Below, in pieces: positions 18,142 to 38,770 of a stretch of DNA of 64,000 bases. Location: NCBI GenBank assembly GCA_028818755.1, contig JAPPNF010000086.1:1-64000 (forward strand). Direction: 5' to 3'. The position numbers and the translations under genes were made by a program. The notes below the pieces were generated by a model. That model saw only the letters and a program-made list of their open reading frames with translations, did no database searches and was not told the origin of the DNA. This DNA comes from Deltaproteobacteria bacterium (GTDB taxonomy: Bacteria; Desulfobacterota; Binatia; UBA9968; JAJDTQ01). Each line of letters starts with the position of its first letter. Position 1 is the stretch's first letter.

Positions 18142-18639
18142 ATGAAAGGCGATCCGAGGGCGCTCAAGGCGCTCAACGACGTGCTGCGGAAAGAGCTGAC
18201 GGGAATCAATCAATACTTCATGCACTCGCGGATGTGCCGCAACTGGGGCTACCAGGTCCTGGACCAGTTCATCTGGAAGGAGTCCATCGAGGAGATGCAG
18301 CACGCGGACGAGGTCATCAACCGCATCCTGCTGCTGGACGGCGTGCCCAACGTCGCCGGTTACGACAAGATCATGGTGGGCAAGACCGTCAAGGAGCAGT
18401 TGGAGAACGACCTCGGCTTGGAGGACGCCGCCATCAAGGTGCTGCACGCCAGCATCGCCACGTGCAACGAAGCGGGAGACCACGTGAGCCGCGAGCTGCT
18501 GGAACGGATCCTGGCGGACGAGGAGAACCACGTGGACTGGATCGAGGCGCAGCTCCACCTGATCCAGGAGGTCGGCATGGAGAACTACCTGGCGCAGCAG
18601 ATCCATGCCGCGGGCGGCGGCGAAGCAGGCGGAGCTTGA
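18142..18639 (+). CDS. bfr: bacterioferritin
   Basis: Iron-storage ferritin of 165 residues, four-helix bundle. All ferroxidase ligands sit at the classical positions: Glu18, Glu51, His54, Glu94, Glu127 and His130. The heme-ligand Met52 (IEEMQHADEVINRIL) is present too, so a 24-mer with heme at subunit interfaces is expected. GGAGGAGG precedes the ATG. The C-terminal tail is Gly/Ala-rich and slightly longer than in E. coli. It stores iron in the cytoplasm and is placed between an iron-binding protein and a metal-responsive regulator. Confidence 0.95.
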   Translation: MKGDPRALKALNDVLRKELTGINQYFMHSRMCRNWGYQVLDQFIWKESIEEMQHADEVINRILLLDGVPNVAGYDKIMVGKTVKEQLENDLGLEDAAIKVLHASIATCNEAGDHVSRELLERILADEENHVDWIEAQLHLIQEVGMENYLAQQIHAAGGGEAGGA

Positions 18640-18673
18640 GGACGGCAGCCGTCGCCGACAGGGTGAAACCGAC

Positions 18674-21905: not shown

Positions 21906-21954
21906 GAGCCTGCATCGTGGGGACCGGCCTCCAGGGGCGCCGACGCTCCGCATT

Positions 21955-22055
21955 CGTCATTACCGCGAAAGCGGGAATCCAGGGGTGGGGAGGGGCGAAA
22001 CGGAGGTGATTCCCCACCTCACCCCTCCTGGATTCCCGCTTTCGCGGGAATGACG
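21955..22055. repeat. inverted pair of GTCATTCCCGCGAAAGCGGGAATCC repeats
   Basis: Two facing copies (CGTCATTACCGCGAAAGCG... and ...CTTTCGCGGGAATGACGG) separated by about 35 bases. Each is itself a hairpin and together they can form a long cruciform. They fill the gap between ubiD and the SCO gene and may end the ubiD transcript. Confidence 0.9.
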
Positions 22056-22065
22056 GAGAGAAGGG

Positions 22066-22698
22066 ATGGAGCGAATGAAGGCGGTTCTTTGCAGGATGTT
22101 GACGGCCGCTGCGCTGGCCCTGTCGGTCGTGCTGGCGCCCGGTACGGAAGCGTCCGCCCACAAGTCCATCCTCAAGGTCGAGTTCGCCGAACGGCGCGAG
22201 CTCAACGTCCTCATCGACAACTTCGCTCTCACCGACCAGAACGGCGGGCGCGTGGAGTTCCGCAAGCTCCGGGGCAAGCCGTTGGTCATCAACTTCATGT
22301 ACACGTCGTGCCCGGACGTCTGTCCGCTGTTGACGGCGAGCCTCAAGATCCTCCGGGACCACATGAAGCCGGCGGAAGCCAGGGACATCCGCTTCCTGTC
22401 CATCACCACGGACCCGGAGATCGATTCGCCGAAGGTGCTCAAGGCCTACAGCAAGCGGCATGAGGCCGACGCCCCCAACTGGTGGTGGCTCACCGGAGAG
22501 GCCCGGGAGCTGGCGCCGGTCTGGCAGGGCTTCGGTGTCAGTGTGAAGCGGCTCGCCAAGGGTCTCATCGAGCACACCACCCTCACCGTGGTGGCGGACG
22601 CTCAGGGATTCATGCGCTTCGCCTACTTCGGGTCCGCACCGGACCCGGACGTCCTCCTGAAGGACCTGAGAGCGCTCGAGAAGGAGGCCGCCACCTGA
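22066..22698 (+). CDS. SCO1/SenC family protein
   Basis: Exported thioredoxin-fold copper chaperone of 210 residues. A signal peptide or anchor (about 5-30) is followed by the CxxxC copper site (YTSCPDVC, Cys82 and Cys86) and the distal His in IEHTTLTVVAD (His170). It differs clearly from the SCO protein encoded at 5523. It stands 26 bases before a Cu/Zn-efflux-type permease-SPFH fusion, suggesting shared copper handling in the envelope. An alternative ATG lies three codons downstream (22075) behind GGATGGAG. Confidence 0.9.
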   Translation: MERMKAVLCRMLTAAALALSVVLAPGTEASAHKSILKVEFAERRELNVLIDNFALTDQNGGRVEFRKLRGKPLVINFMYTSCPDVCPLLTASLKILRDHMKPAEARDIRFLSITTDPEIDSPKVLKAYSKRHEADAPNWWWLTGEARELAPVWQGFGVSVKRLAKGLIEHTTLTVVADAQGFMRFAYFGSAPDPDVLLKDLRALEKEAAT

Positions 22699-22724: not shown

Positions 22725-24818
22725 GTGGAATCGCTGCTGAGCGATATCTTTTGGGAGACCGTCTGGGTCTTTTACGAGGCCTCGATCTACCTCCTCGTCG
22801 GCTTCTTCGTCGCCGGACTCCTTCACGTCTACCTGCCGGCGGATCTCATCGCGCGGCACTTGGGCCGAAACGACGCCCGCTCGGTGGGTCTGGCCGCGCT
22901 CTTCGGCGCGCCGATCCCCCTGTGCTCGTGCGGCGTCCTGCCGGCGGCGGCGTCCCTGAAACGGCAAGGGGCCGGCCGGGCGCCGCTGGTCTCGTTCCTG
23001 ATCTCCACCCCCGAGACCGGGGTGGATTCCGTGGCGCTGACCTACGGGCTCATGGGCCCGGTCATGGCGGTGGTCCGTCCCGTGGTGGCGGTGGTGACCG
23101 CGCTGATCGCCGGCATCGCCTCCATGGGGGTCAAGGAGGATCCCGAAGGTGTGCCGCCGGTCGACGTAGCATGTGACGACGCGTGCGCGGAGAGCGGAGC
23201 GCACGTGGATGCGTGCGATGACGGCGGCGCGGCGCCAGGCGGGGCCCGCCGTTTCCTCCATTCCCTGGAGTACGGCTTCAGCTCGGTGCTGGACGACATC
23301 GCGCTGTCGCTCCTCATCGGCCTGGTGCTGACCGGCATCCTGGCCGGCCTTCTGCCCGACGGCTTCTTCACCGACGTGCTCGGGTGGGGCTCCGGGCTCA
23401 TGCCGATGCTGGCCATGATCGTGGTGGGCCTGCCGCTTTACCTCTGCGCCAGCGCCTCCACCCCCATCGCCGCCGCGCTCATGGCCAAGGGCCTTTCCCC
23501 GGGCGCGGCGCTGGTCTTCCTGCTGGTGGGGCCGGCCACCAACCTGGCCACCATGACCGTGGTCGGGCAGCTCCTGGGCCGCCGTCATCTCGGCGTCTAT
23601 CTCGGCGCCATCGTGCTGGTGAGCCTCGCCGCGGGCCTGCTGGTGGACGCGACCCTGGCGGACTTCATCCAGGTGGCTCCCTTCGGCGACCCGGGGCAGG
23701 ACGGTGACATCCTGTTCGCGCTCAAGGCTCTGTCGGCGGTGGGGCTGGCGCTGCTGCTGCTGCGGAGCTTCCGGCGCAAGGGCTTGGGCGCCACCTGGCG
23801 GGAGGCCGCGACACAGCTCCGCCAGACCGGCCAGGCTCTCAGGGCCCTGCGCCCCGGCAACCTCCTCCGGGGACCGGTGCTCGCGGCCGCGCTTGTGATC
23901 GCACTGCTCGCCGCCATCCCGGCCCTGACGCTCATCGTCGGGCCCGGCCAGCGCGGCGTCATCCAGCGGTACGGGCGGGTCGTGGCCGCCGATCTCGAAC
24001 CGGGCCTGTACTTTCATCTCCCGCCGCCTTTCGGCAACGGAACCGCGGTGGACGTGGCGCTGATCCGCCAGGTGACGGTGGGTTTCCGGGGCGGCGTCAA
24101 CGGCGCCCGGCCGGCCCTCGACGAGCAGGCGTTCTACCTGACCGCCGATGGCAACATCATCGACATGCGGGCCGTGGTCCAGTACCGCGTCACCGACCCG
24201 GCGGTGTACGCCCTGGGCGTCGAGGAGACCCCGGCGGTGGTGCTCGGGCTGGCCCGCCGCGAGCTGGTCAGCCTGCTGAGCCGCAAGCCCATCGACAGGA
24301 TCTACACCGTGGACCGCAGGCCCACGGAACGGGCGCTGCGGGACCGTTTGGCGAGGCGCCTGGCGGTCCTGGGCATCGGCAGCGAGATCCTGGACGTGCG
24401 GCTGCTGGACGTGCACGCGCCCGGACGGGTCCACGACGCCTTCCGCGACGTCGCCAGCTCGCTGGAGGACCGCCAGCGCGACATCCACGTGGCCACCGGG
24501 GCGGCGAAGCAGTCCACCGCGGCGGCCGTAGGCGAGGCGGCGCGCATCACCGAGCGCGCCGAGGGACGCGCGGTGCGCGAGGTCAAGCGGGCCGAGGGAC
24601 GGGCAGCCGCCTTCCGCGCAACCGCGGCGGCGCACGCCGGCAGCCCGGCGGTCACCGAGACCCGTCTGTACCTGGAAACCCTGGAGGATTCCCTGGAGCT
24701 GCCGCGGAAATACATCTACATGCCGGGGACGGGCGGCGGCGACGTGGACCTCTGGGTGGGCAGCCCATCGGTGGATTTCCTGAACCTCGGGGCTCCCGAG
24801 CCCGGGAGGAGTCGCTAA
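22725..24818 (+). CDS. Cu/Zn-efflux permease (SO_0444/DUF318 type) fused to SPFH domain
   Basis: A 697-residue two-part membrane protein. Residues 1-350 are a predicted permease with about eight helices, the paired motifs PIPLCSCGVLPAA (CSC at 67-69) and YLCASASTPIAAALMAKG (241-255), and a loop rich in Cys, Asp and His (CDDACAESGAHVDACDD, 150-166). After a linker comes a single helix (383-405) and then an SPFH/band-7 domain of HflK type (GPGQRGVIQRYGRVVAADLE, about 406-600) with a coiled-coil (575-640) and a C-terminal tail. The permease family is linked to Cu/Zn efflux, while SPFH proteins oligomerise into membrane scaffolds and regulate FtsH. Joining them in one chain is unusual. It starts at GTG. 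Two further SPFH genes follow, and the same fusion recurs at 36242. Confidence 0.85.
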   Translation: MESLLSDIFWETVWVFYEASIYLLVGFFVAGLLHVYLPADLIARHLGRNDARSVGLAALFGAPIPLCSCGVLPAAASLKRQGAGRAPLVSFLISTPETGVDSVALTYGLMGPVMAVVRPVVAVVTALIAGIASMGVKEDPEGVPPVDVACDDACAESGAHVDACDDGGAAPGGARRFLHSLEYGFSSVLDDIALSLLIGLVLTGILAGLLPDGFFTDVLGWGSGLMPMLAMIVVGLPLYLCASASTPIAAALMAKGLSPGAALVFLLVGPATNLATMTVVGQLLGRRHLGVYLGAIVLVSLAAGLLVDATLADFIQVAPFGDPGQDGDILFALKALSAVGLALLLLRSFRRKGLGATWREAATQLRQTGQALRALRPGNLLRGPVLAAALVIALLAAIPALTLIVGPGQRGVIQRYGRVVAADLEPGLYFHLPPPFGNGTAVDVALIRQVTVGFRGGVNGARPALDEQAFYLTADGNIIDMRAVVQYRVTDPAVYALGVEETPAVVLGLARRELVSLLSRKPIDRIYTVDRRPTERALRDRLARRLAVLGIGSEILDVRLLDVHAPGRVHDAFRDVASSLEDRQRDIHVATGAAKQSTAAAVGEAARITERAEGRAVREVKRAEGRAAAFRATAAAHAGSPAVTETRLYLETLEDSLELPRKYIYMPGTGGGDVDLWVGSPSVDFLNLGAPEPGRSR

Positions 24819-24892
24819 TGTCCTGTCCGATAGTCAAATACAACCCCTCTCCCTCTGGGAGAGGGTGGCCGAAGGCCGGGTGAGGGACTAGC
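24816..24892. repeat. dispersed repeat with strong hairpin
   Basis: It begins TAATGTCCTGTCC, like the left end of the MITE-like family. It then contains CCCTCTCCC-TCT-GGGAGAGGG, a perfect nine-pair hairpin, and GGCCGAAGGCC, and ends GGGACTAG. The TAA stop of the fusion gene is the first base triplet of the repeat. It sits inside an operon and could attenuate the next gene. Confidence 0.65.
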
Positions 24893-25891
24893 ATGGCCAA
24901 ACGCATTGCCTCTGTCCTGTTGCTGGCGCTGGCGGTGGTCGGCGCCGTCACCTCCTTCGTCGTGGTGGACGAGAGGAGCCACGCGGTCATCACCCAGTTC
25001 GGCAGGCCGGTTTCGGTGCTGAGCGACGCCGGCTTCTATCTCAAGCTGCCGGTGCCCTTCCAGCGCGCGAGCCTCCTCGACAAGAGCATCCTGATCACCA
25101 ACACCCGCGAGACCGAGCTTTTGACCGCGGACAAGAAGAACGTGCTGGTCTCCACCTACATCTCCTGGAAGATCGCCGACCCGGTGCGGTACCTGGCGGC
25201 GCTCCGCACCCGGGAGTTCGCGGAGAACCGCCTGGCCGCGCTGGTCCAGTCCGAGCTCGGCAGCGCCTTGGGGGACCGGCCCTTCGGCACGATCCTGGGG
25301 GCCGCCGGCAACGGCGCCAGCCTTGCCGAGCTGGAAGGATCGGTGGAGGAAGCCGTGGCCAAGGTGGCGGGGGAGGACCTGGGGATCGAGGTGGTGAGCC
25401 TGGGCGTGACCCGCCTCATCTTCCCGCAGCAGAACCTCGACAGCGTGTTCGCGCGCATGCGCGCCGAACGCGCGCGCATCGCCCGGGGCCATCGTTCCGA
25501 GGGGCGCGCCGAGGCCCAGAAGATCGCCGCACGGGCGGAGCGGGAACGGGCGCGGATCATCGCCGACGCCGAGGCCGAGGCCGCCATGCTGCGGGGCAGG
25601 GGGGAGGCGGAGGCGGCGCGCATCTACGCGGGGGCCTATGAGGGGCACGGCGAGTTCTACCGCTTCCTGCGCACGCTGGAGGCCTACAAGAAGGTCCTGA
25701 ACGAGAAGACCACGCTGGTGCTGCCGGCGGATTCGCCGTTCCTCGATCTGCTGACGTCGCGCATTCCGAGCGCCGGAGCGGGACCGGGGCGGGACGGCAA
25801 GGCCGCGGAACGGAAACCGGAGGCCCCGGAGCGGGCCGGCGCCGGCCGCGGCGCAGCGCCCGGCGAGAGCGGGCGCGATACCGGCTCATGA
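24893..25891 (+). CDS. HflC-like SPFH-domain protein
   Basis: Protein of 332 residues with one N-terminal membrane helix (about 5-26), then an SPFH domain (VDERSHAVITQFGRPVSVL to about residue 190) with the HflC-like segment LLTADKKNVLVSTYISWKIADPVRYL. A long Ala/Glu/Arg coiled coil follows (about 190-250), then a Pro/Gly-rich charged tail. HflC and HflK form cage-like rings around the FtsH protease in the inner membrane. Here the gene is second in a permease-SPFH module, so it may instead scaffold the metal permease. It overlaps the next SPFH gene by four bases (ATGA). Confidence 0.85.
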   Translation: MAKRIASVLLLALAVVGAVTSFVVVDERSHAVITQFGRPVSVLSDAGFYLKLPVPFQRASLLDKSILITNTRETELLTADKKNVLVSTYISWKIADPVRYLAALRTREFAENRLAALVQSELGSALGDRPFGTILGAAGNGASLAELEGSVEEAVAKVAGEDLGIEVVSLGVTRLIFPQQNLDSVFARMRAERARIARGHRSEGRAEAQKIAARAERERARIIADAEAEAAMLRGRGEAEAARIYAGAYEGHGEFYRFLRTLEAYKKVLNEKTTLVLPADSPFLDLLTSRIPSAGAGPGRDGKAAERKPEAPERAGAGRGAAPGESGRDTGS

Positions 25892-26784
25892 GCGGACGGA
25901 CACGATACTGGACGCTCCTCTCGGGCGCCGTCCTGCTGGCAGGCTACCTGGCGCTCGGGGTCTATAACGTCGAATCCGACGAGAGCGCGGTGGCGTACGT
26001 GCTCGGCCGGGCGGTGGGCCGGGACGTGCTCCCGGGAATACACTGGAACCCGCCGTGGCCGTGGGGCCGGGTGGCGGTCGCCAGGACCGCGACGAACTTC
26101 ATCATGCCGGTGGAGCACTCCGATCCCGGAGGAACCGAGGAATCCCTCTGGCTGCTGGGCGACACCAACGTCATCGTCGGCAGGCTGGGCATCCAGTACA
26201 GCATCCGCAGCCTGACCCGGTTCGAGGTCTCGCACGAGGACCCGCGCGAGTTGCTGCGCCGGGCGGGCCGCCGGATCGTCACGCGGTTCCTGGCCGGCGA
26301 GAACGTGGACGCCGCCCTCACCAGCCGCAGGAGCGACCTGCTGACCGCCGTGCAGCGGCAGGTCCAGTCGATACTCGACGATCACGGCGCGGGCATCGAG
26401 ATCCAGTCGGTGAACATCCAGGCGCTGGCGCCGCCCGAGCAGGGCGGCGTGCGACAGGCGTTCCAGGAGGTCCAGAGCGCCCTGGCGGACCGGGAGCGGG
26501 TGGTGGACGAGGCCCGCGCCGACCGCGCCCAGATCCTCGCGGAGGCCGAAGGGGAGGCGGAGCACCGCGTGGCCCAGGCCCAGGCGGCGCGCCACCGGCG
26601 CGTGGAGATCGCCAAGGGCGAAGGCGAGCGCTTCCGCCGCCTGGCGCTGGAGCACCGCAGGACCCCCAAGCTCACCGAAGAACGGCTCTACCTCGAAGCC
26701 CTCGAAGAGATCCTGCCGCACATGGACACCTACGTCGTCCAGTCGGGCCCGGACGGCAAGGTCAACCTGCGCGTGGTCCGGTGA
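25888..26784 (+). CDS. HflK-like SPFH-domain protein
   Basis: A 298-residue protein with one membrane helix (about 8-26) and an SPFH domain beginning VESDESAVAYVLGRAVGRDV. The sequence WNPPWPWGRV and the block LLGDTNVIVGRLGIQYSI match HflK, which pairs with HflC. A coiled coil covers about residues 190-250 (RERVVDEARADRAQILAEAEGEAE). HflK usually has a Gly-rich cytoplasmic leader, missing here. It is the third SPFH protein of the first module and probably assembles with the two products encoded before it. Confidence 0.85.
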   Translation: MSGRTRYWTLLSGAVLLAGYLALGVYNVESDESAVAYVLGRAVGRDVLPGIHWNPPWPWGRVAVARTATNFIMPVEHSDPGGTEESLWLLGDTNVIVGRLGIQYSIRSLTRFEVSHEDPRELLRRAGRRIVTRFLAGENVDAALTSRRSDLLTAVQRQVQSILDDHGAGIEIQSVNIQALAPPEQGGVRQAFQEVQSALADRERVVDEARADRAQILAEAEGEAEHRVAQAQAARHRRVEIAKGEGERFRRLALEHRRTPKLTEERLYLEALEEILPHMDTYVVQSGPDGKVNLRVVR

Positions 26785-26790
26785 TGTGTC

Positions 26791-26954
26791 TAGTGTCCTG
26801 TCCCCACATAGTTCTTTACCGATCTGCTGGTCTTTCTCGTCGTCGGCTGCGTTGCTCTTCCTCGCGTGGTGCCCGCCACTGCTCGTCATCGCGCCTTGCC
26901 GACAACAAGAAATCCTGCGCAGCTCGGTAAAGAACTATGTGGGACAGGACGCTA
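26791..26954. mobile_element. MITE-like element with about 31-base inverted ends
   Basis: A 164-base non-coding element. The ends TAGTGTCCTGTCCCCACATA and the complement of TATGTGGGACAGGACGCTA continue inward through TTCTTTACCGA, differing by one substitution and one extra C over about 31 bases. Both ends carry TA, which would suit insertion at TA by an IS630/Tc1-type transposase supplied elsewhere (inference). The interior (26823-26923) holds no gene. It lies between the HflK-like gene and znuA. Related ends occur at 1-56, 24816, 32366 and 52329. Confidence 0.8.
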
Positions 26955-26975
26955 GGCCACCGTTCGACAGCCCTC

Positions 26976-27007
26976 TTGACAGCGAGCCTATTTGAGAATA
27001 GCTTCTC
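26976..27007 (+). promoter_or_regulatory. possible promoter and operator of the zinc-uptake operon
   Basis: TTGACA (26976-26981) is followed by a weak, poorly spaced -10 region. An imperfect palindrome GAGAA-N4-TTCTC (26994-27007) lies 33 bases before the start of znuA. It does not clearly match the Zur or Fur consensus. Zinc-dependent repression would be expected for this operon but is not shown by the sequence. Confidence 0.3.
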
Positions 27008-27040
27008 GACACGCATTCTCTCTGGCAGGAGGACCGGAAA

Positions 27041-28162
27041 TTGAAAAGACTGGCGACTGCGTTGTTGATAGGTGCCGCAGGCTTTTGGATGACCGCTCAC
27101 TCGGCTCTGGGGAGCGGGAAGCCGATAGGCGTGGTGACCAGCGTCATTCCCGTAGCCTACGTCGTGGAAGAGCTTGGGGGCGAGCGCGTCGAGGTGAAGG
27201 CCCTGGTACCGCCGGGCGCCAGCCCTCACACGTTCGAGCCGGTGCCGAGCGATATGAGGAGGATTGCCGGGGCACGGCTCTTTTTCGTGATAGGCGGGGG
27301 CTTCGATGCCTGGTCCGACAAGCTCCTGGGCGCGGCTCCCGCCGGTCTGGAAACCGTCCACCTGATCGAGGCGCGGAATCTGAATCCTCTTGAAGGGGAG
27401 GACGACCATCACGGCGAGGAGCACGGTGAAGAGAAGGCCGGCGCCAAGGAGGAAGACCATCACGGCGAGAAGAAGGCCGTAGCCAAGAAGGAGGAGCACC
27501 ACGACGAGGAGAAGGCCGCGGCCAAGAAGGAGGACCACCACGGCGAGGAGAAGGTCGCAGCCAAGGAGGAGGACCATCACGGTGAGGAGAAAGCCACGGC
27601 CAAGAAGGAAGAGGATCATGGCGAGGAGGGCGAAGAATTCAACCCGCATTTCTGGCTGGATCCGATACGGATAAGGGACGTGGTCGTTCCGGTCATTGTC
27701 GAACACCTCATCGAAGCGGACCCGGCCGGGAAGGCGTACTATCAGAAGCGCCGGGAAGATTTTCACCGCAGGTTGACGGCGTTGGACCAGGAGATCAGAG
27801 GGGAGCTCGACAAGGCGAAGTCGCGCAAGTACATCGCCTTTCACGCGGCCTGGCCCTACTTCGCCGAACGCTACGGTCTGGAGAAGGTCGCGGTGGTTCA
27901 GGAATTCGGCGGCGAGGAGCCGACACCCAGGGAAGTCGCCAATCTCGTGCGAGACGCCCGCGCCGCGGGGGTCGGGGCCATCCTGGTGGAGCCGCAACTG
28001 AATCCGCGGGTGGCGCAGACCATCGCCGCGGAGTTCGGCGCGGGAACGGTGGTGGTGGATCCGGTGGGCGACCCCGGCGATCCGGCGCGTTCGAGCTACG
28101 AAAAACTGATGCGTTTCAACACGCGCGCTTTCGGCAACGCGCTGGGGAGCAAACGGAATTGA
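27041..28162 (+). CDS. znuA: zinc ABC transporter binding protein ZnuA with long His-rich loop
   Basis: Exported zinc-binding protein of 373 residues, starting at TTG eight bases after AGGAGG. The signal peptide is at about 1-24. Zinc ligands are expected at the His in ASPHTFEPVPSD (63), NPHFWLDP (203) and AFHAAWPYFAERYG, plus the acidic end of the domain. Between the first two lies an unusually long charged loop (121-199) built from 13-residue repeats such as KEEDHHGEEKATA, with many His-His pairs. Such loops collect or sense zinc in ZnuA. The stop overlaps the start of znuC by four bases. Confidence 0.93.
   Translation: MKRLATALLIGAAGFWMTAHSALGSGKPIGVVTSVIPVAYVVEELGGERVEVKALVPPGASPHTFEPVPSDMRRIAGARLFFVIGGGFDAWSDKLLGAAPAGLETVHLIEARNLNPLEGEDDHHGEEHGEEKAGAKEEDHHGEKKAVAKKEEHHDEEKAAAKKEDHHGEEKVAAKEEDHHGEEKATAKKEEDHGEEGEEFNPHFWLDPIRIRDVVVPVIVEHLIEADPAGKAYYQKRREDFHRRLTALDQEIRGELDKAKSRKYIAFHAAWPYFAERYGLEKVAVVQEFGGEEPTPREVANLVRDARAAGVGAILVEPQLNPRVAQTIAAEFGAGTVVVDPVGDPGDPARSSYEKLMRFNTRAFGNALGSKRN
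27446..27637 (+). repeat. 39-base coding tandem repeat (His/Glu/Lys loop of ZnuA)
   Basis: Four full 13-residue units (start residues 136, 149, 162 and 175) and a partial fifth, each of the type KKEDHHGEEKVAA, encode the metal-binding loop. The units differ at several codons, so the array is not very recent, but its length may vary between strains. Confidence 0.85.
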
Positions 28163-28950
28163 CCGGAGATAACCGGAACGTGGTCGTGGGCGTGAGCGGT
28201 GTGACGGTGGAGCTGGACGGCCACTGCGTGTTGCACGACATCAACTTCAATGTTCACGAAGGCGGGTTCGTGGGGATCATCGGACCCAACGGAGCCGGCA
28301 AGACGACGCTCATGCGCACGATCATGGGCCTCATGCCGGTGGTGAGCGGCCGGGTGGAGGTGTTCGGCTCCCCGCCCGGCGGGAAGGGCTCCGACGCCAT
28401 CGGTTACGTGCCGCAACGCCAGAGCATCTCTCCCGAGTTTCCGGCCACCGTTGGCGACGTGGTGATGATGGGGAGGCTGCGGCAACTCGGCGCATTCGGA
28501 TTCCCGGGCAAGGAAGACTGGGAGCGGGTGGACCGAAGCCTCGAGCTCGTGGGCATGCAGGACCGCAGGGACCGTCCCGTGGGGCGGATGTCCGGAGGCG
28601 AGCAGCGCCGGGTCATGCTGGCCCAGGCATTGTGCGCCAGCACGCGGTTGCTGGTGCTCGACGAGCCCACGGTGGGACTCGATCTTCCCGCCGAGCATGA
28701 GTTCTATGGGCTGCTCCGAAGACTCATACGGGATTTGACCCTGACCATCGTGGCGGTGTCCCATGACCTCGTGGCCATGGCCGGCCAGTCCGATGAGCTG
28801 ATCTGCATCAATCAACGCATGCACATTCACGGGAACGCCGAGGAGGTGATCCACAGCCACGCCATCCGCGAGGCCTACCGCTGCGAGTTCGACTTCCTGG
28901 GCGGCGAGCTTGCCCATCACGAGACGCCCGGCCATCAACACAACGGGTGA
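28159..28950 (+). CDS. znuC: zinc ABC transporter ATPase
   Basis: ATP-binding subunit of 263 residues: Walker A GPNGAGKTTLMRT, Q-loop YVPQRQSIS, signature MSGGEQRRVMLAQAL, Walker B LVLDEPTVGLDLP, switch His in VSHDLVAM. It starts at TTG inside the znuA stop (TTGA); a GTG seven codons later (28180) with GGAG upstream is an alternative. The C-terminus has several His residues (ELAHHETPGHQHNG) that may bind metal. It powers the importer formed with the next gene. Confidence 0.92.
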   Translation: MTGDNRNVVVGVSGVTVELDGHCVLHDINFNVHEGGFVGIIGPNGAGKTTLMRTIMGLMPVVSGRVEVFGSPPGGKGSDAIGYVPQRQSISPEFPATVGDVVMMGRLRQLGAFGFPGKEDWERVDRSLELVGMQDRRDRPVGRMSGGEQRRVMLAQALCASTRLLVLDEPTVGLDLPAEHEFYGLLRRLIRDLTLTIVAVSHDLVAMAGQSDELICINQRMHIHGNAEEVIHSHAIREAYRCEFDFLGGELAHHETPGHQHNG

Positions 28951-28983: not shown

Positions 28984-29817
28984 ATGTTCGATTTCGCCTT
29001 CATGCAGCGCGCACTGGCGGCGGCGATCCTGGTGGGGCTGCTATGCGGGATCCTGGGCTTTTTCGTGGTGCTGCGGCGCCTGGCCTTCATCGGCGTCGGG
29101 ATCTCCCATTCGGCCATCGGGGGTGTTGCCATCGGCATCCTGGCGGGATGGAATCCGCTCGTGACCGGCGCCGTGTTCGCCATCGCCGTGGCGCTGGGAA
29201 TTGCCCTCGTGAGCCGGAGCGACAACATCAGCGAGGACACGGTCATCGGCGTGTTCTTCTCCGGGTCCATGGCCTTGGGCGTCGTGCTCTTCAGCATGAA
29301 GAGCGGCTACCAGCAGGATCTCTTCAGCTACCTCTTCGGTAACGTGCTGGCCATCTCCACCGTCGAGCTCGTGGCCCTCGCCTGCGCGAGCGCGGTGATC
29401 ATGGCGATCATGCTGTTGACGTTCAAGGAGCACATGCTGATCTCGTTCGACGAAGAGGTAGCGGCAGCCTACGGCCACAAGGTCCTGGCGATGAACGTGC
29501 TGCTGCTGGTGTTGCTGGCCCTTACCGTCGTCATCGGCGTAAGGCTGGTGGGTCTGTTGCTGATCCAGGCCCTGCTGGTGGTGCCCGCCGCGATCGCGGC
29601 CCTGTGGGCGTTGAATTTCCGGTGGCAGGTGCTGCTGGCGGCCTCGATCGGAGCGCTTTCAGGCGTGGTGGGGCTCGTGCTGGCGTATCATCTGGACGTC
29701 GCCGCCGGAGGGTCCATCGTGATGGTGGCGGTGGCGCTCTTCTTCGTGACCCTGCTGGCGCACTTCATCCGCCGTCAGTTCCGGACTCCGCCGCCTGTCT
29801 CCCTGGATGAACCGTAG
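28984..29817 (+). CDS. znuB: zinc ABC transporter permease
   Basis: ABC-3 family membrane subunit of 277 residues with about eight helices. Typical stretches are FFVVLRRLAFIGVGISHSAIGGVA, DLFSYLFGNVLAIS and RLVGLLLIQALLVVPAAIA. It lies 33 bases after znuC with GGAAAC before the ATG. It forms the channel for the metal delivered by one or both neighbouring ZnuA proteins. The first ZnuA gene is upstream and another follows directly. Confidence 0.93.
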   Translation: MFDFAFMQRALAAAILVGLLCGILGFFVVLRRLAFIGVGISHSAIGGVAIGILAGWNPLVTGAVFAIAVALGIALVSRSDNISEDTVIGVFFSGSMALGVVLFSMKSGYQQDLFSYLFGNVLAISTVELVALACASAVIMAIMLLTFKEHMLISFDEEVAAAYGHKVLAMNVLLLVLLALTVVIGVRLVGLLLIQALLVVPAAIAALWALNFRWQVLLAASIGALSGVVGLVLAYHLDVAAGGSIVMVAVALFFVTLLAHFIRRQFRTPPPVSLDEP

Positions 29818-29866
29818 GAACCGAGGAAAACACTCAGCCCCATTGCGGTCGAGCATGGGGGTGATC

Positions 29867-30814
29867 ATGAATCGAACCATAGTCGCGGCGGTTCTTCTTG
29901 CCTGTTCGTTCATCTTACCGTCGCAGGCGCGCGCCGCGGATCGGGTCGTGGCGACATTCAAGCCGGTGCACTCACTGGTGAGCGCGGTGATGGCCGGGGT
30001 GGGTGAACCTTACCTGCTCATGCGCGGTTCCGAGTCGCCGCACACCTACCGCATGCGCCCGTCCGACGCCGGTGTCCTCGGCAAGGCCCGCGTCATCTTC
30101 ATGATCGGTGAGCTCACCGAGACGACGCTGGTGGGCCCCATCCGCAAGCTCGGCCGCAAGGTCCGGGTGGTGGAGCTGGCCGAAGCGCCCGCGCTGGTTC
30201 GCAGGCCGCCGCGCATGGGCGGCGCTTTCGAAGACGACGGTCACGGGCATTCCCATGGGCACGGTCATGGTCACGGCAGCGGGCTTGGAAAGGACGACGC
30301 GTTCGACATGCACGTCTGGCTGGACCCGATAAACGCCGGGTGGATGACGCTGGCGATCGCCCGGGCCCTGTCCGAGACCGATCCGGCCAACGCCGCGAAG
30401 TACGACGCCAACGCGGATGCGCTGATCACCCGGCTGGAGGCCTTCCGGGCGGAGCTGGACGCGGAGCTGGCGCCGGTGCGCAGGAAGCCCTTCATCGTGT
30501 TCCACGACGCTTATCAGTATTTCGAGAAGCGCTTCGGGCTGACCGCCGTGGGCTCGGCCATGGTCCCCGCCGGCCGGGCGTCCGGCGTCCGGCGCGTCCG
30601 TGAGCTGCGCCGCAAGGTGCGCGAGCTGGGCCTGGTATGCGTGCTCGCCGAGCCTCGCTACGATCCCCGTTTCGTCAAGCTCATCACCGAGGGAACGGAT
30701 GCGCGCGCCGGCACCATCGACCCCGCCGGCACCACCATCAAGCCCGGCCCCGAGATGTATTTCAGCCTGCTGCGGAACATGGCCGCGTCTTTCAAGGCCT
30801 GCCTTGCGGGTTAG
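29867..30814 (+). CDS. second zinc-binding protein of the Znu operon
   Basis: Exported ZnuA-like protein of 315 residues. The ATG behind GGGGGTG gives a normal signal peptide (MNRTIVAAVLLACSFILPSQ). It has FKPVHSLVSAVMAGVGEPYLL, the first His in SPHTYRMRPSD, a His-rich loop (GHGHSHGHGHGHG, about 125-140), MHVWLDPINAG and VFHDAYQYFEKRFG. It resembles the ZnuA group of alphaproteobacteria more than the His/Glu-rich protein upstream, so the operon has two unlike receptors for one permease. Its stop overlaps the stop of the convergent carboxyltransferase gene. Confidence 0.9.
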   Translation: MNRTIVAAVLLACSFILPSQARAADRVVATFKPVHSLVSAVMAGVGEPYLLMRGSESPHTYRMRPSDAGVLGKARVIFMIGELTETTLVGPIRKLGRKVRVVELAEAPALVRRPPRMGGAFEDDGHGHSHGHGHGHGSGLGKDDAFDMHVWLDPINAGWMTLAIARALSETDPANAAKYDANADALITRLEAFRAELDAELAPVRRKPFIVFHDAYQYFEKRFGLTAVGSAMVPAGRASGVRRVRELRRKVRELGLVCVLAEPRYDPRFVKLITEGTDARAGTIDPAGTTIKPGPEMYFSLLRNMAASFKACLAG

Positions 30815-32370: not shown

Positions 32371-32859
32371 CTAGAAGAACACGACCAGCAGGATCAGGCT
32401 GATCAGGCCGCCGAGCATGAAACACGCGGCGCTGACGGTGCCGGCCAACGTGGTGTAGTCCGCGAGGCGGAAGGTCTCGCTTTCGACCGCGAAGAGGACA
32501 TTCGTGCGATCCAGGTTGCCGTCGACGAACTGTTTCAGGCCGTTTTCCGCCCCCTGCGCCTCTTTCACGGAGACCATGGTCACTAGGATCAGGGTCAGCG
32601 CCGACATGAGGATTCCGGTTCCGAACACGATCAGGGCCAGCAGGAGAGACCAGTGGTAGAACGCGCTTTCGGTCCTTGCCGCATTGCTCATGAACCCGAT
32701 GATCAGGGCGCTGCCGCCGGCGTTCCCGTACAGCAGCATGCGCCCCGATTCGGTGATGAGCCGGAACATGGTGCCGCGTCGCAGCGCAATGACCTTGTAC
32801 AGCTCGCGCAGCCACTCCTCGCCGACTTCTTCGGTGGAAAACTCGTCGATCCTTTTCAA
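32371..32859 (-). CDS. three-helix membrane protein of unknown function
   Basis: I do not recognise a family. The 162-residue product has an N-terminal amphipathic stretch (EEWLRELYKVIALRRGTMFRL) and three hydrophobic segments (about 45-60, 68-95 and 137-161), ending in LILLVVFF. It is the last gene of the second permease-SPFH operon, overlapping the binding-protein gene by four bases, so it probably acts with that system. The TAG stop is contributed by a small relic of the MITE-like repeat (GGGGACACTAG), so the original C-terminus may have been altered. Confidence 0.7.
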   Translation of the reverse strand: MKRIDEFSTEEVGEEWLRELYKVIALRRGTMFRLITESGRMLLYGNAGGSALIIGFMSNAARTESAFYHWSLLLALIVFGTGILMSALTLILVTMVSVKEAQGAENGLKQFVDGNLDRTNVLFAVESETFRLADYTTLAGTVSAACFMLGGLISLILLVVFF

Positions 32860-34043
32860 GGCCGCCCTCTCCCCCCGTCGATTCGCTGCCCCAAGTCGGT
32901 CAGCCTGACGAATTTCGCCCCGACGTTCGTTCCGGGCTGGAACTCGACCGCCCAGTCATCGATGAGCACGACGCCGGACGCCAAAGCCTGCTGCAGGAAA
33001 CGCTCCCGCGTCCACTCGTCGCCCAGGCGCTCCAGCACCGTGATGACGAAGCGGCCGAGAATGTAGCCCTCCAGGGACAGTTCGTTGAACATGGGTGGAG
33101 CCGACCCCGCCTCCCGTTCGCTCGCCGCTCGAAGGGCGCGCTGATAGCTGCGGACGATCCGCCTCTTCGTGTCCGTCGGGTTCGGCATCACCTCGGTCAC
33201 CAGGATCCTGTCGCTCGGCGCCTCGATTCTCTTCCGCAGCTCGGAGGACAGGACAAAGGACAGGTTGCCGATGATGTAGTCGTGCCCCAAGCCGTTGGCC
33301 AGGTTGATGATCTCGGCGTTGGCCGCGTAAGGCCCGACGATCAGAATCGCGTCGAGATCGGCCTTCGCCAGGATGAAGAGGCCCGCGTGGACGGCATGCG
33401 TATTGCGCGAGAAGGCCGATTTCGCGAGGATGTGAAGTCCGTGTTCCCTGAGCACGGTCTGGTAGTTTTTCAGGACCGAGCGCCCGAAGGCGTCGTCCTG
33501 GTAGAGGATGCCGAAGCGCTTCTTGCCGCGCTTGCGAACGACGTGGTCCACCATCGCGCGGAGTTCCTGGAGGTAGCTCGCCCTCAGATTGACCACGTGC
33601 GGATTCCGCTTGAAGTCCCCCAGGAAGTCGGCCCCCGTGATGTGGCCCACGAAGGGGATGCCGGCCGCTCGCAGCACCGGCACGATGCGCTTCGCCGTCG
33701 GCGTCCCCACCCCGCCGATGACCGCGAGCACATCGTCCTTGGAGGCGAATCTCTCCGCATTCGCCGCCGCCATCTTCGGCTCATAGCCGTCATCGAGCGA
33801 GATCAGCTCCAGGGACCTCCCGTTGACTCCTCCTTTGGCGTTGCGTTCCGCGAACGCCGCGAGGAGGCCCGCGCGATAGTGGATTCCCAACTGCCTGTTG
33901 GGCCCGGAGAAACAGGCGCTTTGCCCGAAAACGACCGCTTTCGCGTGGACTCCGGGGGCGGCCGCCGAGACGCCCGGAGCCAGCAGGCATCCGAACACCA
34001 GCAGCGACAACCATAGAACCCGGCGGGACGTCCGCTCAGTCAT
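32856..34043 (-). CDS. periplasmic ligand-binding protein (Peripla_BP_6, LivK-like)
   Basis: Exported type I periplasmic binding protein of 395 residues. A signal peptide (about 1-28) is followed by AVVFGQSACFSGPNRQLGIHYRAGLLAAFAERNAKGGVNG, typical of branched-chain amino acid-type receptors, then GVGTPTAKRIVPVLRAAGIPFVGH and FGILYQDDAFGRS. No permease or ATPase of the Liv type is present. The gene sits between an HflK-like gene and a small membrane protein gene in one operon. It may be a sensor or ligand-binding partner of the permease-SPFH complex, and not part of an importer (inference). The ligand is unknown. Confidence 0.85.
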   Translation of the reverse strand: MTERTSRRVLWLSLLVFGCLLAPGVSAAAPGVHAKAVVFGQSACFSGPNRQLGIHYRAGLLAAFAERNAKGGVNGRSLELISLDDGYEPKMAAANAERFASKDDVLAVIGGVGTPTAKRIVPVLRAAGIPFVGHITGADFLGDFKRNPHVVNLRASYLQELRAMVDHVVRKRGKKRFGILYQDDAFGRSVLKNYQTVLREHGLHILAKSAFSRNTHAVHAGLFILAKADLDAILIVGPYAANAEIINLANGLGHDYIIGNLSFVLSSELRKRIEAPSDRILVTEVMPNPTDTKRRIVRSYQRALRAASEREAGSAPPMFNELSLEGYILGRFVITVLERLGDEWTRERFLQQALASGVVLIDDWAVEFQPGTNVGAKFVRLTDLGQRIDGGRGRP

Positions 34044-34047
34044 GGCT

Positions 34048-35337
34048 TCAGTTCCCTCCGTGTTGCCCGCGGCCCGCGCCTTCGTTGAGCGTCTTCTCCA
34101 CCATCGACCTCAGAGTCGCCTGCTGGGTGGCGCCGCCGCGGCGGGAACCGCCGTGACGATGGGAAAAGATCGAGGGCGTGTCGAATATAAGCGAACGGGG
34201 ATTGGCTTCCCTCGCGTGGTCACGCTCCGCTTGCGGGCGGTGGAACCGGCCCTCGACCAACGGCTTGTCGGCCGTGACGCTCTCCAGGGCGTGCACGTTC
34301 AGCGGCATGGTCGATCTCGACAGCCGCTCGCCGGGAGCGGCGGGCGACGGCGGCGTGTGCGCCGCGACCGCCGTCGGGGGGACTCCCGGGGCGCCGTCGA
34401 TCATGTTGATGTCGATGTTCGACGCCTCGCCCGGGTTGACGACCGACAGGCTCGCCTCGGCGAAGATCGTGCGCATCCGTTGCCAGTAGCGGGTGATGGC
34501 AACCTGGTTCGGGTTTTTCCTGTATTCAGCCAGCAGGTCAGTGAAGACCTTCGCGCTGCTGCGTGCCTGGACGAGCCGTGTCCGGGCACTCGCCCTGGCG
34601 TCCGTCACCAGCGCTTCGGCCTGGCCCTTGCTGCGCGCAAGCAGTTGCTCTCTCTTGCGATTCGCCACGCTCACGACTTCTTCCCGCTCCGCGATGGCGT
34701 CGTTGACGTCCCGGAACGCCTGCAGCGTCTCCTGGATCGGGCGCACGTCGACGATGTTGAGCGAGACGATCTCGAGACCGAAGTCCAGCGCTTCGAGGCG
34801 CTTGACCACGTCTTCGAGCAGATGTTGTTGAATGATGTCGCGATTGGAGGTGAAGATCAGGTCGATGAAGTTCTGCCCGAGGAGATTGATCAGTTCCTCG
34901 CGAACGAACGCGGTGAGCAGCGCGACGTGGTCGGCGGACGCGAACAGGTACGCCCTCAGGTTGTCGATCTTGTACTGGATGACGACGTCGGCCTCGATGA
35001 GGTTGGTGTCTCCGGTCAGGATGGTGAAGTTCGCCTGATTGCCTTTCGTGCTCGACACTTCGTGGCCGAGAATCCGTTTGACCTTTCGAATATGCATCCG
35101 CTCGACGAGCGGAACGGCGTAGCCCAGCCCCGGACCGACCTGCGCATCGACCACTTTCCCGAAACGGGTGCGTACGCCCTGTTCCTCTTTCTTGACGACG
35201 TAGAAGCCGGTGAGCAGGAAGCCGACGACGGCGATGGCGACAAGGATCCAGAGGATCTTCGTGTAGCGCCCCTCAAGGAAGTCGAAGGCGGCGTAAATGG
35301 CCCGCGTGCTCGGAGGCAGGGACTGTGGTTCGCTCAT
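34048..35337 (-). CDS. HflK-like SPFH-domain protein, second module
   Basis: A 429-residue membrane-anchored SPFH protein: short cytoplasmic leader, helix at about 28-48, SPFH domain from KKEEQGVRTRFGKVVDAQVGPGLGYAVPL to about 235, with the HflK-like block LTGDTNLIEADVVIQYKI and RPIQETLQAFRDVNDAI. A coiled coil (about 215-290) is followed by a long, low-complexity C-terminal tail (about 320-429) with Pro, Ser, Arg and a HRHGGSRRGG stretch. It is longer than the 298-residue HflK-like protein of the first module. It follows the HflC-like gene by 14 bases. Confidence 0.85.
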   Translation of the reverse strand: MSEPQSLPPSTRAIYAAFDFLEGRYTKILWILVAIAVVGFLLTGFYVVKKEEQGVRTRFGKVVDAQVGPGLGYAVPLVERMHIRKVKRILGHEVSSTKGNQANFTILTGDTNLIEADVVIQYKIDNLRAYLFASADHVALLTAFVREELINLLGQNFIDLIFTSNRDIIQQHLLEDVVKRLEALDFGLEIVSLNIVDVRPIQETLQAFRDVNDAIAEREEVVSVANRKREQLLARSKGQAEALVTDARASARTRLVQARSSAKVFTDLLAEYRKNPNQVAITRYWQRMRTIFAEASLSVVNPGEASNIDINMIDGAPGVPPTAVAAHTPPSPAAPGERLSRSTMPLNVHALESVTADKPLVEGRFHRPQAERDHAREANPRSLIFDTPSIFSHRHGGSRRGGATQQATLRSMVEKTLNEGAGRGQHGGN

Positions 35338-35351
35338 CGGATGAATCCGCC

Positions 35352-36245
35352 CTACCGAGGTATTTCCTTGCTGTCGAGATACTTGAACAGCTCGTTGTCC
35401 GCGGGCAGCATGAGGGTCGTGTTCCCGTCGATGATCCGGTCATAGCTGTCGAGCGCGCGGAGGAACTTGTAGAACTCCGGGTCCTCCTCGTAGGCCTTGC
35501 CGAGCAGCGCCATCGCCTCGGCTTCCGCCTTTCCGAGAATGGCGGTGGCCTCGGCGTGGGCTTCGGCGATGATCTTCTCGTGCTCGTTGATGGCCCGGGC
35601 CTCGATGCGGATCGCCATCTCCTCCCCCTCGCTGCGATAGCGCGCGGCGATGCGGGCGCGTTCGGAGATCATCCGTTGGATCACGCTCGGCCGGTTCGAC
35701 ACCGGCAAGGTGTACTCGACGATTCCCGTCCGCAGCACGTCGATGCCGTAGTCCTTCTTCGCGACCGGCGCGATGAGCGACTGGATCCTGTTGGCGGCCG
35801 CGGTCAGATTTTCGTGCTCCAACCCCAGGCTGATGAAGGCGTCCTGGGCCTCGTTGCTGATGACGATGCCGCTGCTCGACATGTAGAGGTCCTTGAGTCG
35901 CTGGATGGCGTTCTGGCCGGTCCGGATCGCCTCGACATAGAGGATCGGGTCACGGACGCGCCACAGCAGATATCCGTCGACATGAACGCTCTTCTGGTCC
36001 TCCGTGATCAGTTCCTGTGTCAGCCCGGTCATGGCGTGAATGCGCCGATCCACCTTGTATATCCTGGATATCGGCCGGGGCCATTTCAGGTGGAGTCCGG
36101 GTTGCCTGACGGGAGGCGATATCTTCCCGAAGTGGGTCAACACGCCCTGCTGCGTCTCGTCGACGATGTAGAAGGAATCGTACGCTATGACGAGCAGGAC
36201 GATCGCGGCAATGGATGCGGCGATTTTCCTTGATCTCGAGGTCAT
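35352..36245 (-). CDS. HflC-like SPFH-domain protein, second module
   Basis: A 297-residue SPFH protein with one N-terminal helix (about 7-26) and the HflC pattern: VDETQQGVLTHFGKISPPVRQPGLHLKWPRP, LITEDQKSVHVDGYLLWRV, then GIVEYTLPVSNRPSVIQRM and a coiled coil (AINEHEKIIAEAHAEATAIL). The end LMLPADNELFKYL is typical of HflC. It overlaps the permease-SPFH fusion gene by four bases and so is the second gene of the module, as its counterpart is at 24893. Confidence 0.88.
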   Translation of the reverse strand: MTSRSRKIAASIAAIVLLVIAYDSFYIVDETQQGVLTHFGKISPPVRQPGLHLKWPRPISRIYKVDRRIHAMTGLTQELITEDQKSVHVDGYLLWRVRDPILYVEAIRTGQNAIQRLKDLYMSSSGIVISNEAQDAFISLGLEHENLTAAANRIQSLIAPVAKKDYGIDVLRTGIVEYTLPVSNRPSVIQRMISERARIAARYRSEGEEMAIRIEARAINEHEKIIAEAHAEATAILGKAEAEAMALLGKAYEEDPEFYKFLRALDSYDRIIDGNTTLMLPADNELFKYLDSKEIPR

Positions 36246-38770
36246 TTCGCTTCTCCCCCCGATTTCTCCGACTTCTCAGGCTTGGCGTTCCCCTTGTCTT
36301 GGGCGCTGGCGAGTTTTCGGGACTTTTCCGGCTCTCCCTTGGCCCCGCTCTGTTCACCATGGTTCCGGGGGCCGGTCGAGCCTTTCTGCTTGTCCTTCTC
36401 GCCGGGGGTCACGCTCTTGGCGGATTCTTCGGGTCTTTTCTCCCCGGCAGCCCCGTTGCGATGGTCCATGCCGCCGGCCGGTCCGTTCTTCCCGTGCGCC
36501 GGACGCATGTGTCCGTCACCCGCCGACGATTTCCTCTTCCACAGCGCGACCTTTCCCAGACTGTCCTGGTTGGGAACGATGATCTTCGGATTGTGGGAAA
36601 GCGCGATTTCCAGCTTCTCGCGCCACAGCATGTTCCGAAGCACGTCCGGCGAGACTTGCATGGCCTTCGCCACCCTCCGGATCGCGTCGGCTTCCGCGCC
36701 CGATGTCGCCACCCGCGAATACGCCCGGCCGTCGGCTTGCTTCACCTCGTAGTCGGCATTGCCGTGCGCCTGGGGAATCATCGACACCAGGAGCCGCTGC
36801 GCGTTGACGATGATCCTCTCCTTGTCCTCCTGCGCGGTGGACACCTCCCGGAATGCGCTTGTGGTCTCGGCCACGGGGCGGATCTCCGACAGGCTCACCT
36901 TGACCAGCTCGACACTCTCGAACACCGAGGGTCCCGCGTCCTGTCCCGAATCCTTCCCCGTGAACAGGGCGCCGACGTGCCCTTCGAGGGTTCCGCGATG
37001 GACGGTGAGCAACTGCTCCAGGGGTCTGGCGGATACGAAGGAACGCACCTGGTCCCGGACCGCGTCCCGGATGAGGCTTGGCGCGTCGATGATCCGGTAG
37101 TGGTAGGCATACGGGTCTTTCACTCGATATTGGACGTTGACGGTGAGGGAAACGAGGTTCAGGTCGCCGGCCACGAATTCGCGTGATTCCCCGCCCATCA
37201 TGGACTTCACTTCCCGGACCGGCCATTTGTCGATCCGGGCGAAGGGCGGGGGAGCGAGGTAGTGCAGCCCCGGCTGCAGGTCCTTCCAATAGACCTTGCC
37301 GAAAAGGCGGCCGTAGCCGACCGAGCCCGGGGGCACGACCGCGAAACCGTTGGCCAGGTAGACGGCGACGATCAGGGCGAGGACCATCATGCCCAGAGGC
37401 GTCTTGGGGGAGATGGCGCCCAGCGCGGGGCGGCCCCGGCTCAGTCGCGTCCACGTCCTTGTCAGGGGTTCGGACATGTTGCGGAGGTTCTTCGTCAAAT
37501 CCGACCAGCCGGTTCGCAGGGCGCCGGCGCGGAACCGCCAGACGACCAGGGCGATGAAGGCGAAGGTGCTCACGTACTGGAAGAACAGGATGTTCGGCGA
37601 GGTCGAGGCGCTCAGGTTCAAGGGCAGCGTCAGGGCGGCGGCGGCCAGGAGGATGTCCACGAGGATGGCCACGAGGACGGTCACCACGATGACCACGGTG
37701 ACGTAGATGGACGCGAAGCGCGTGCCGAACTGGTGCATGATGACCGCGATGGTTCCCGAGTTCGTGGCGGGGCCCGTCATGAGAAAGATCAGCGCCGCTC
37801 CCGGACTGAAGCCCTTGGCCACCAGCGCGGCGGCGATGGGCGTGCTTGCGGAGGCGCAGATGTAAAGCGGGACGCCGATCAGGACCATGATCGGGTAGGC
37901 CGCCCACTGGGCGTATTCGTTGTCCATCAGGGTGTCGGGAATCGCCAGATAGAGCAGGCCTCCCACGGCGACGCCGAAGAGCAGCGAGAACAGGATGTCG
38001 TCGGCGATTTCCACGAAACCGTAGTGAAAGATATGCCTGACGATGGTCTTGAAGCTGGGCAGGTTGTACCCCGCGGGCAGTTCGACGTCCGGAGTGTCGA
38101 GCGGCTCATCCTCGGCCGCCATCTCCTCGCGATAGAACTCCGGCTTGACCCAGAACGTGATCCTCCGGTTGGCGACCTTCGCCAGGAGCGTCCTGAAGCC
38201 GTACCCCATGGCGATCTTCAGTTGTGAGGGGCTGATGCAGCAGTCGTCTTCGCTTGGAATGAGATGTTCGTGCGGGCCGTGATCGTGGTCATGGTCGTGA
38301 TCGTGGCTGCCGTCGTGCTCTTCCTTCAGGGTACCGCCGTCGCCTCTGATGAGACCGATGCAGAAAATGCCGGCCACGACCGCGGTGATGAAGCTGATGA
38401 CGGGCCGGACAACCGCCGCCACCCATCCGAAGAAGGCGTTGGTGACGAGAATCGAATCCGCTCCGGTTTCGGGGGCGGTGATCAGGAAAGACATGCAGGA
38501 GGAGCGGGAGGCTCCCTTCCGCCGCATCTCGGTGACCACCGGCACCACCGAGCAACTGCAAAGCGGCACGGGCACGCCGACGGCCGCGCTGGCGCTGACC
38601 GACTTCAGACTGTCGTCACGGAGCCACCGGAACACCGCCTGGCGGGAGATGAAGACGTGGAACAGTCCCGAGAGGAACAGCCCGAGCAGGAGCATGGGCG
38701 ACAACAGAAGCAGCGACATCCACAGGAAGTGGAAGAAGTCGACCAGCAAGCTCCACAATTGAACAGACAT
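36242..38770 (-). CDS. Cu/Zn-efflux permease fused to SPFH domain, second copy
   Basis: An 842-residue relative of the 697-residue fusion, strongly diverged. Permease part, residues 1-415: VPVPLCSCSVVPV (CSC at 71-73), a metal-binding loop with a HDHDHDHDHGPHEHL-type run (about 156-169) followed by DDCC, and YICASASTPIAAALVAKG (303-320). A helix at about 458-475 leads to the SPFH domain (FAVVPPGSVGYGRLFGKVYW, to about 690). The last 100 residues are Lys/Glu/Ser/Gly-rich and probably disordered. It opens a minus-strand operon with HflC-like, HflK-like, binding-protein and small membrane protein genes. Expected location is the inner membrane, with efflux of Zn or Cu as the likely role from the permease family. 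Confidence 0.85.
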   Translation of the reverse strand: MSVQLWSLLVDFFHFLWMSLLLLSPMLLLGLFLSGLFHVFISRQAVFRWLRDDSLKSVSASAAVGVPVPLCSCSVVPVVTEMRRKGASRSSCMSFLITAPETGADSILVTNAFFGWVAAVVRPVISFITAVVAGIFCIGLIRGDGGTLKEEHDGSHDHDHDHDHGPHEHLIPSEDDCCISPSQLKIAMGYGFRTLLAKVANRRITFWVKPEFYREEMAAEDEPLDTPDVELPAGYNLPSFKTIVRHIFHYGFVEIADDILFSLLFGVAVGGLLYLAIPDTLMDNEYAQWAAYPIMVLIGVPLYICASASTPIAAALVAKGFSPGAALIFLMTGPATNSGTIAVIMHQFGTRFASIYVTVVIVVTVLVAILVDILLAAAALTLPLNLSASTSPNILFFQYVSTFAFIALVVWRFRAGALRTGWSDLTKNLRNMSEPLTRTWTRLSRGRPALGAISPKTPLGMMVLALIVAVYLANGFAVVPPGSVGYGRLFGKVYWKDLQPGLHYLAPPPFARIDKWPVREVKSMMGGESREFVAGDLNLVSLTVNVQYRVKDPYAYHYRIIDAPSLIRDAVRDQVRSFVSARPLEQLLTVHRGTLEGHVGALFTGKDSGQDAGPSVFESVELVKVSLSEIRPVAETTSAFREVSTAQEDKERIIVNAQRLLVSMIPQAHGNADYEVKQADGRAYSRVATSGAEADAIRRVAKAMQVSPDVLRNMLWREKLEIALSHNPKIIVPNQDSLGKVALWKRKSSAGDGHMRPAHGKNGPAGGMDHRNGAAGEKRPEESAKSVTPGEKDKQKGSTGPRNHGEQSGAKGEPEKSRKLASAQDKGNAKPEKSEKSGGEAK

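Follow-up and report, generated by a model that had tools for sequence, protein, structure and literature searches.

A three-gene cassette that begins with a metal permease fused to an SPFH scaffold protein is real and conserved, and it is most likely part of zinc homeostasis. A sequence-only reading of the window, which is the whole 64,000-nucleotide stretch of deltaproteobacterial DNA analyzed here, had proposed a permease-SPFH fusion of 697 aa with two partner SPFH genes and had held that no system with this fusion was described. The open reading frames at 22725-26784, Pfam and curated models bear out the first proposal, and we found no description of the fusion in the open literature searched.

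Organization of the fusion and its partner genes

The first gene of cassette A (22725..24818, plus strand) has a GTG start and encodes 697 aa in which an SO_0444-type permease is followed by an HflK-like unit of TM helix, SPFH domain and coiled coil, according to the ORF call, domain matches and AlphaFold2 (AF2). Gene 2 (24893..25891, plus strand) encodes an HflC-like SPFH protein of 332 aa that scores 182.4 bits against the hflC model TIGR01932, above its cut-off of 134.4 bits, and lies in the position-2 (p2) clade of the tree described below. Gene 3 (25888..26784, plus strand) encodes an HflK-like SPFH protein of 298 aa that lies in the position-3 (p3) group and scores 148.9 bits, short of the 159.4-bit cut-off of the hflK model TIGR01933. 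The four-base overlap reported earlier holds for genes 2 and 3, which share the bases ATGA, but not for the fusion and gene 2, which are separated by a 74-bp gap. A canonical HflK/HflC pair is also present in this genome, on a different contig. An Rfam search of window positions 16000-42000 gave no match.

Within fusion A, Pfam places ArsP_1 (PF03773) at residues 17-307 with 140 bits and Band_7 (PF01145) at residues 404-592 with 62 bits. The permease domain (residues 14-347; 22764..23765, plus strand) belongs to the SO_0444 family by model NF033936, against which the fusion scores 350.3 bits over a cut-off of 300, while its score of 140.6 bits against the hflK model is under the cut-off. The CSC and CASASTP motifs and the Cys/His loop noted earlier are all present, with CSC at residues 67-69, CASASTP at residues 241-247, and an acidic central permease loop that contains 3 Cys and 2 His. 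The residues C67, S68, C69, C241, S245-T-P247, P96-E97 and G269-P-A-T-N273 are invariant in 23 aligned fusions, and because the motif residues are kept across all of these proteins, the fused permease is probably active.

The permease is followed by a basic linker of 27 residues (350-376) with 7 K/R versus 1 D/E, and then by a TM helix (residues 383-401; 23871..23927, plus strand) that is helical in the AF2 model and homologous to the TM helix of E. coli HflK itself. Profile positions 381-676 of the fusion match residues 78-347 of E. coli HflK (E 8e-55), and since the match spans this range, HflK's own TM helix is retained in the fusion. By the positive-inside rule, the basic linker would place the permease C terminus in the cytoplasm and the SPFH domain in the periplasm, as in HflK. 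Residues 402-656 (23928..24692, plus strand) form the SPFH domain and a coiled-coil helix, as placed by Pfam, AF2 and Foldseek. The AF2 monomer model, made from the 23 fusions (mean pLDDT 79, pTM 0.57), consists of the permease helices, the TM helix at 383-401, an SPFH domain at 402-564 and a long coiled coil at 567-656, and the best Foldseek matches are the HflK structures 7vhq/9cz2. The SPFH part of the fusion thus resembles HflK in sequence and in predicted fold.

A second cassette in the same window

A second, divergent cassette of the same make, missed by the first reading, lies 9 kb from cassette A at 34048-38770 on the minus strand. Its first gene (36242..38770, minus strand) encodes a permease-SPFH fusion of 842 aa with a His-rich permease loop, which scores 305.5 bits against NF033936, also over the cut-off of 300 bits, and 120.6 bits against hflK. 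Gene 2 (35352..36245, minus strand) is HflC-like and passes the hflC cut-off of 134.4 bits with 166.7 bits, and gene 3 (34048..35337, minus strand), encoding 429 aa, is HflK-like with 146.7 bits, below the hflK cut-off. By equivalog score, then, the HflK-type members of both cassettes are HflK-like and not HflK. A fourth gene (32856..34043, minus strand) encodes a Peripla_BP_6-type periplasmic binding protein of the branched-chain amino acid/urea type. It is 64% and 46% identical to the product of the gene after cassette B in loci L179 and L100, respectively, with the family named from the L179 homologue, and a Peripla_BP_6 fourth gene is present in 3 of the 3 type B lineages examined.

Distribution and inheritance of the cassette

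Fusion A is found in six other species of its genus at 82-84% identity, with one copy on a 4.2-Mb contig, and for this reason it is not an assembly artefact. The fusions in distant phyla likewise rule this out. In a scan of 84,980 species genomes, we found at least 22 more full-length or near-full-length fusions, so that other proteins with both domains, which the sequence-only reading had suggested looking for, exist in no fewer than 22 unrelated genomes spread over about eight phyla. Groups among the scan matches listed are Myxococcota/delta, Acidobacteriota, Zixibacteria, Gemmatimonadota, Planctomycetota, Spirochaetota and Alphaproteobacteria, with Bradyrhizobium erythrophlei GAS478 and B. 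australiense as cultured carriers; a gammaproteobacterial (Pseudomonadales) B-type copy was found in a separate search. The fusion is nevertheless rare, though spread over distant phyla. Among 395 genomes of the window's own phylum, two besides the window's carry it (E<=1e-45), and 89 have a match to an SO_0444-like permease. In the phylum of G591, an Acidobacteriota MAG, 1 of 396 genomes has the fusion, which is the seed G591 itself, and a search of the Bradyrhizobium phylum with the B query, run with no positive control, gave 0 of 398 genomes. No plasmid-borne fusion covering 80% of the query was found in 72,556 plasmids.

In every locus read, the gene order is fusion, HflC type and HflK type on one strand, often with overlaps of 1-4 bp. 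A chance neighborhood of the SPFH trio was ruled out, as the trio is present in 24/24 fusion loci versus 0/58 stand-alone permease loci. In a tree of 94 SPFH proteins, positions 1, 2 and 3 sort as groups, with 5 label changes versus 48 when shuffled. Position 2 goes with canonical HflC, beside and not inside the sampled canonical proteins, and positions 1 and 3 go with canonical HflK. Because the three positions sort in this way, we read the cassette as one HflC-type and two HflK-type members that are inherited as a set. The permease tree requires 7 changes, with at least 2 forced by the starred branches, and taken by itself the permease neither demonstrates nor rules out that the fusion arose only once.

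One stand-alone permease, in L122, lies beside a ZIP gene and inside a clade of fused permeases, and its SPFH part may have been lost secondarily. Both Bradyrhizobium loci carry an extra HflC-like gene (L085, 5836-6744; L086, 5789-6700) upstream of the cassette, and the gene after this extra one looks like acetamidase/formamidase.

Zinc-uptake genes often adjoin the fusions

Downstream of cassette A on the plus strand are genes for a ZnuA-type metal-binding protein (27041..28162; Pfam ZnuA, 251 bits), a ZnuC-type ATPase (28159..28950; ABC_tran, 104 bits), a ZnuB-type permease (28984..29817; ABC-3, 232 bits) and a second ZnuA-type binding protein (29807..30814; ZnuA, 196 bits). The trio is followed by ZnuABC in the window, in relatives and in L077-L079, and in L077 the run fusion-HflC-HflK-ZnuA-ZnuC-ZnuB has 4-bp overlaps throughout. 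In L080, L082 and L088-L091 a ZIP gene immediately flanks the cassette on one side or the other, and one is also found near the B-type fusion of L179; in L184, a held-out locus, the ZIP gene overlaps the fusion by 1 bp. Within about 4.1 kb, ZIP or ZnuB is present in 11/24 fusion loci versus 1/58 stand-alone permease loci (Fisher p=1.8e-6, an optimistic value that overstates independence because importer-bearing loci are partly related, as in L077-L079, L088-L090 and L080/L082). The stand-alone permeases in this comparison came from the same scan and were searched with the same ZIP/ZnuB models, and L122 is their sole exception. Half of the fusion loci have no recognized zinc importer in the fetched flank.

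The sequence-only reading had assigned the permease to metal efflux, and this role is doubtful because zinc-uptake genes are so much commoner beside fusions than beside stand-alone SO_0444 permeases. It is possible, though we hold it to be less probable than a zinc-homeostasis role, that the permease exports Zn/Cu like Shewanella SO_0444, that the SPFH parts only cluster or stabilize it, and that the importers reflect general zinc control. Both copies do pass the SO_0444 equivalog cut-off, and SO_0444 itself is needed under ZnSO4 and CuCl2 stress and adjoins a ZntR-like regulator (PMC3219624). Consistent with export are also an SCO1/SenC-type copper chaperone gene just upstream of fusion A (22066..22698, plus strand; Pfam SCO1-SenC, 88.7 bits; same order in the genus) and, read by eye, CzcCBA-like genes near L179 and an RND gene near L070. 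Against it, importers are often beside fusions and in only 1/58 loci beside the stand-alone permease, and the related Pseudomonas layout is induced by zinc shortage, not by excess (PMC4542158).

The importers can also be accommodated if the SPFH ring, in the way that stomatins regulate channels, gates the permease shut or open, closing a possible leak when the importers run. Transporters are regulated and encapsulated by stomatin (PMC12407830), the AF2 model couples permease and ring directly by the TM linker, and importers adjoin the cassette. We found no coupling element and regard this explanation as very improbable.

Other metal genes are found nearby. Upstream of cassette A, at 16953-19348, are genes that by a look at the sequence resemble an iron-type periplasmic binding protein, bacterioferritin and a DtxR/MntR-type regulator, which suggests a metal-homeostasis island around the cassette. 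In L075 (G132), an LolD/LolE-like ABC transporter and a His-rich protein are encoded after the cassette at 10020-12669, and we take these genes to resemble the zinc-regulated PA4063-PA4066 system of P. aeruginosa.

Regulatory sites and repeats

The palindrome TTGAGAATAGCTTCTCGA lies over the znuA promoter (26992..27009, plus strand) and recurs upstream of znuA in the genus, with a matching copy in three other congeneric species and a divergent form in a fourth, making it a candidate operator for a metal regulator. Neither this palindrome upstream of the trio nor a Zur-like box near the trio or upstream of fusion A was found in the window. Zur co-regulation in the window is thus unsupported, as no consensus for Zur, Fur or DtxR turned up close to the trio and no znuA palindrome before it. 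The B-type fusion of L100 has an upstream Zur-like box with an 18/22 match (chance about 0.1 at the weaker threshold of 15/22), and L182 has a candidate Zur box upstream of its first gene.

Two repeats were noted near cassette A. The gap between the HflK-like gene and znuA holds a miniature element of 166 bp (26790-26955) that has terminal inverted repeats; this gap is correspondingly longer than in a relative, and the genome contains about 40 full or partial copies of the element. Between UbiD and SCO1, at 21906-22065, is an inverted repeat with arms near TCATTACCGCGAAAGCGGGAATCCAGG that looks like a repetitive element.

The cassette and FtsH

It had also been suggested that the permease is presented to FtsH for turnover. 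We found no gene with the FtsH AAA motif in the fusion loci, and the putative FtsH-contact Arg of HflK is missing in 28/28 third subunits, so this suggestion is not supported. The Arg is present in 4/4 canonical HflK proteins, 15/28 position-1 proteins and 0/28 position-3 proteins, but this is a weak test with uncertain numbering because the cited contact residue, 191, differs from residue 193 in the 419-residue chain. A quality-control role, in which an HflK/C variant delivers either the permease or neighboring zinc transporters to FtsH for turnover, would fit the relationship of the SPFH parts to HflK/C and the holding of FtsH by HflK/C cages (PMC12048511). With no ftsH-like gene in the fusion loci, a canonical HflK/HflC pair separately present in the genome, and the distribution of the putative contact Arg, we consider this role quite unlikely.

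Proposed mechanism

The reading that we favor, with about even confidence, is that of a self-contained zinc-homeostasis cassette with the permease built into an HflK/C-like periplasmic cage. The cytoplasmic C terminus of the SO_0444-type permease would run into a full HflK-like protein (TM, periplasmic SPFH and coiled coil), and genes 2 and 3 would supply the HflC-type and HflK-type subunits. Because HflK and HflC alternate in the known cage (PMC12048511) and positions 1 and 3 are HflK-derived, the two HflK-type members would share the HflK positions. The predicted cage would then have HflC-type subunits alternating with permease-bearing and permease-free HflK-type subunits, and the permeases would be held in a ring at the membrane base of the periplasmic dome. 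Such a dome would bring together, at a single patch of membrane, zinc transport by the permease and by a neighboring ZnuABC, ZIP or P-type ATPase, and would control what reaches this patch. We infer the cage assembly, its stoichiometry, the identity of the metal, the direction of transport and physical contact with the importers. The SCO1 gene upstream points to copper being involved as well. Since stand-alone SO_0444 protects against zinc/copper excess (PMC3219624), the fused permease may nevertheless work in export.

A further version of this mechanism, which we think unlikely, is a closed periplasmic zinc chamber in which the cytosol exchanges zinc with an enclosed periplasmic space through permeases set into the base of the SPFH dome, while the neighboring importer feeds or drains this space as well. 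If true, the cassette would encode a membrane compartment for a metal ion.

To our knowledge, most bacterial SPFH cages have no known client, and the purpose of these cages is an open question. Here the client is covalently part of an SPFH protein, the same three-gene set is present in distant phyla and the neighboring genes name a likely substrate, and therefore the idea that SPFH cages organize transporters becomes directly testable in a bacterium. The cassette suggests direct incorporation of a metal transporter into a membrane cage in some bacteria.

Comparison with known systems

The fusion is like the SO_0444 family in its model score, which is over the cut-off, and in its invariant CSC and CASASTP motifs. 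The stand-alone members, of which SO_0444 itself guards against zinc and copper excess in Shewanella (PMC3219624), differ in having no SPFH domain and in almost never adjoining zinc importers.

With HflK/HflC of the FtsH-HflKC complex, whose cage has 24 alternating subunits (PMC12048511), the cassette shares the fold, the TM-SPFH-coiled-coil layout and the encoding of HflK and HflC types together. It differs in having three subunits, two of them of HflK type, and in having a permease in place of HflK's cytoplasmic tail. In human red cells, a stomatin cage encapsulates AQP1 and UT-B (PMC12407830). Like the dome predicted for the cassette, this is an SPFH dome that organizes a transporter, but the stomatin association is non-covalent, with one SPFH type and unrelated transporters. 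Because the SPFH part matches HflK and transporter-enclosing SPFH cages are known (PMC12407830), a transporter organized or enclosed by its own cage, as the sequence-only reading predicted, is plausible.

The closest described relative is the Zur/zinc-depletion-regulated PA2439-PA2435 locus of P. aeruginosa, which we compared through the gene order of L182, a Pseudomonadales locus. In P. aeruginosa, PA2434-PA2439 comprise three SPFH genes and the P-type ATPase HmtA, and zinc depletion raises their expression (PMC4542158, PMC11761036). In the presence of zinc, Zur binds the promoter of PA2439, although zinc repression of hmtA itself was not seen in one study (PMC8531726), and a triple SPFH deletion had weak phenotypes in the conditions reported (PMC13086221). 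L182 encodes a TM module-SPFH protein, HflC, HflK, a small gene and a P-type ATPase, which is the PA2439-PA2435 order. Its first gene, of 653 aa, fuses to SPFH a polytopic membrane module that has no Pfam match and is unrelated to SO_0444, and its HflC-type member groups with cassette HflC in the SPFH tree with support 92. The PA2439-PA2435 locus (PaFlo5-7 and HmtA) is thus like the cassette in having three consecutive SPFH genes close to a metal transporter and, as read from the stand-in genome, in the order TM module-SPFH, HflC type and HflK type. It is unlike the cassette in that L182 fuses a module other than an SO_0444 permease and the transporter comes as a separate P-type ATPase. Published work shows zinc control of the P. 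aeruginosa locus, whereas in the window we found no Zur box upstream of cassette A. Judging from the L182 order, the unrelated fused membrane module and the shared HflC grouping, the combination of a membrane module-SPFH protein with HflC, HflK and a metal transporter seems to be more general, with the SO_0444 fusion as one version of it. The cassette also offers a possible function for PaFlo5-7, a set of zinc-regulated P. aeruginosa genes so far without an explanation.
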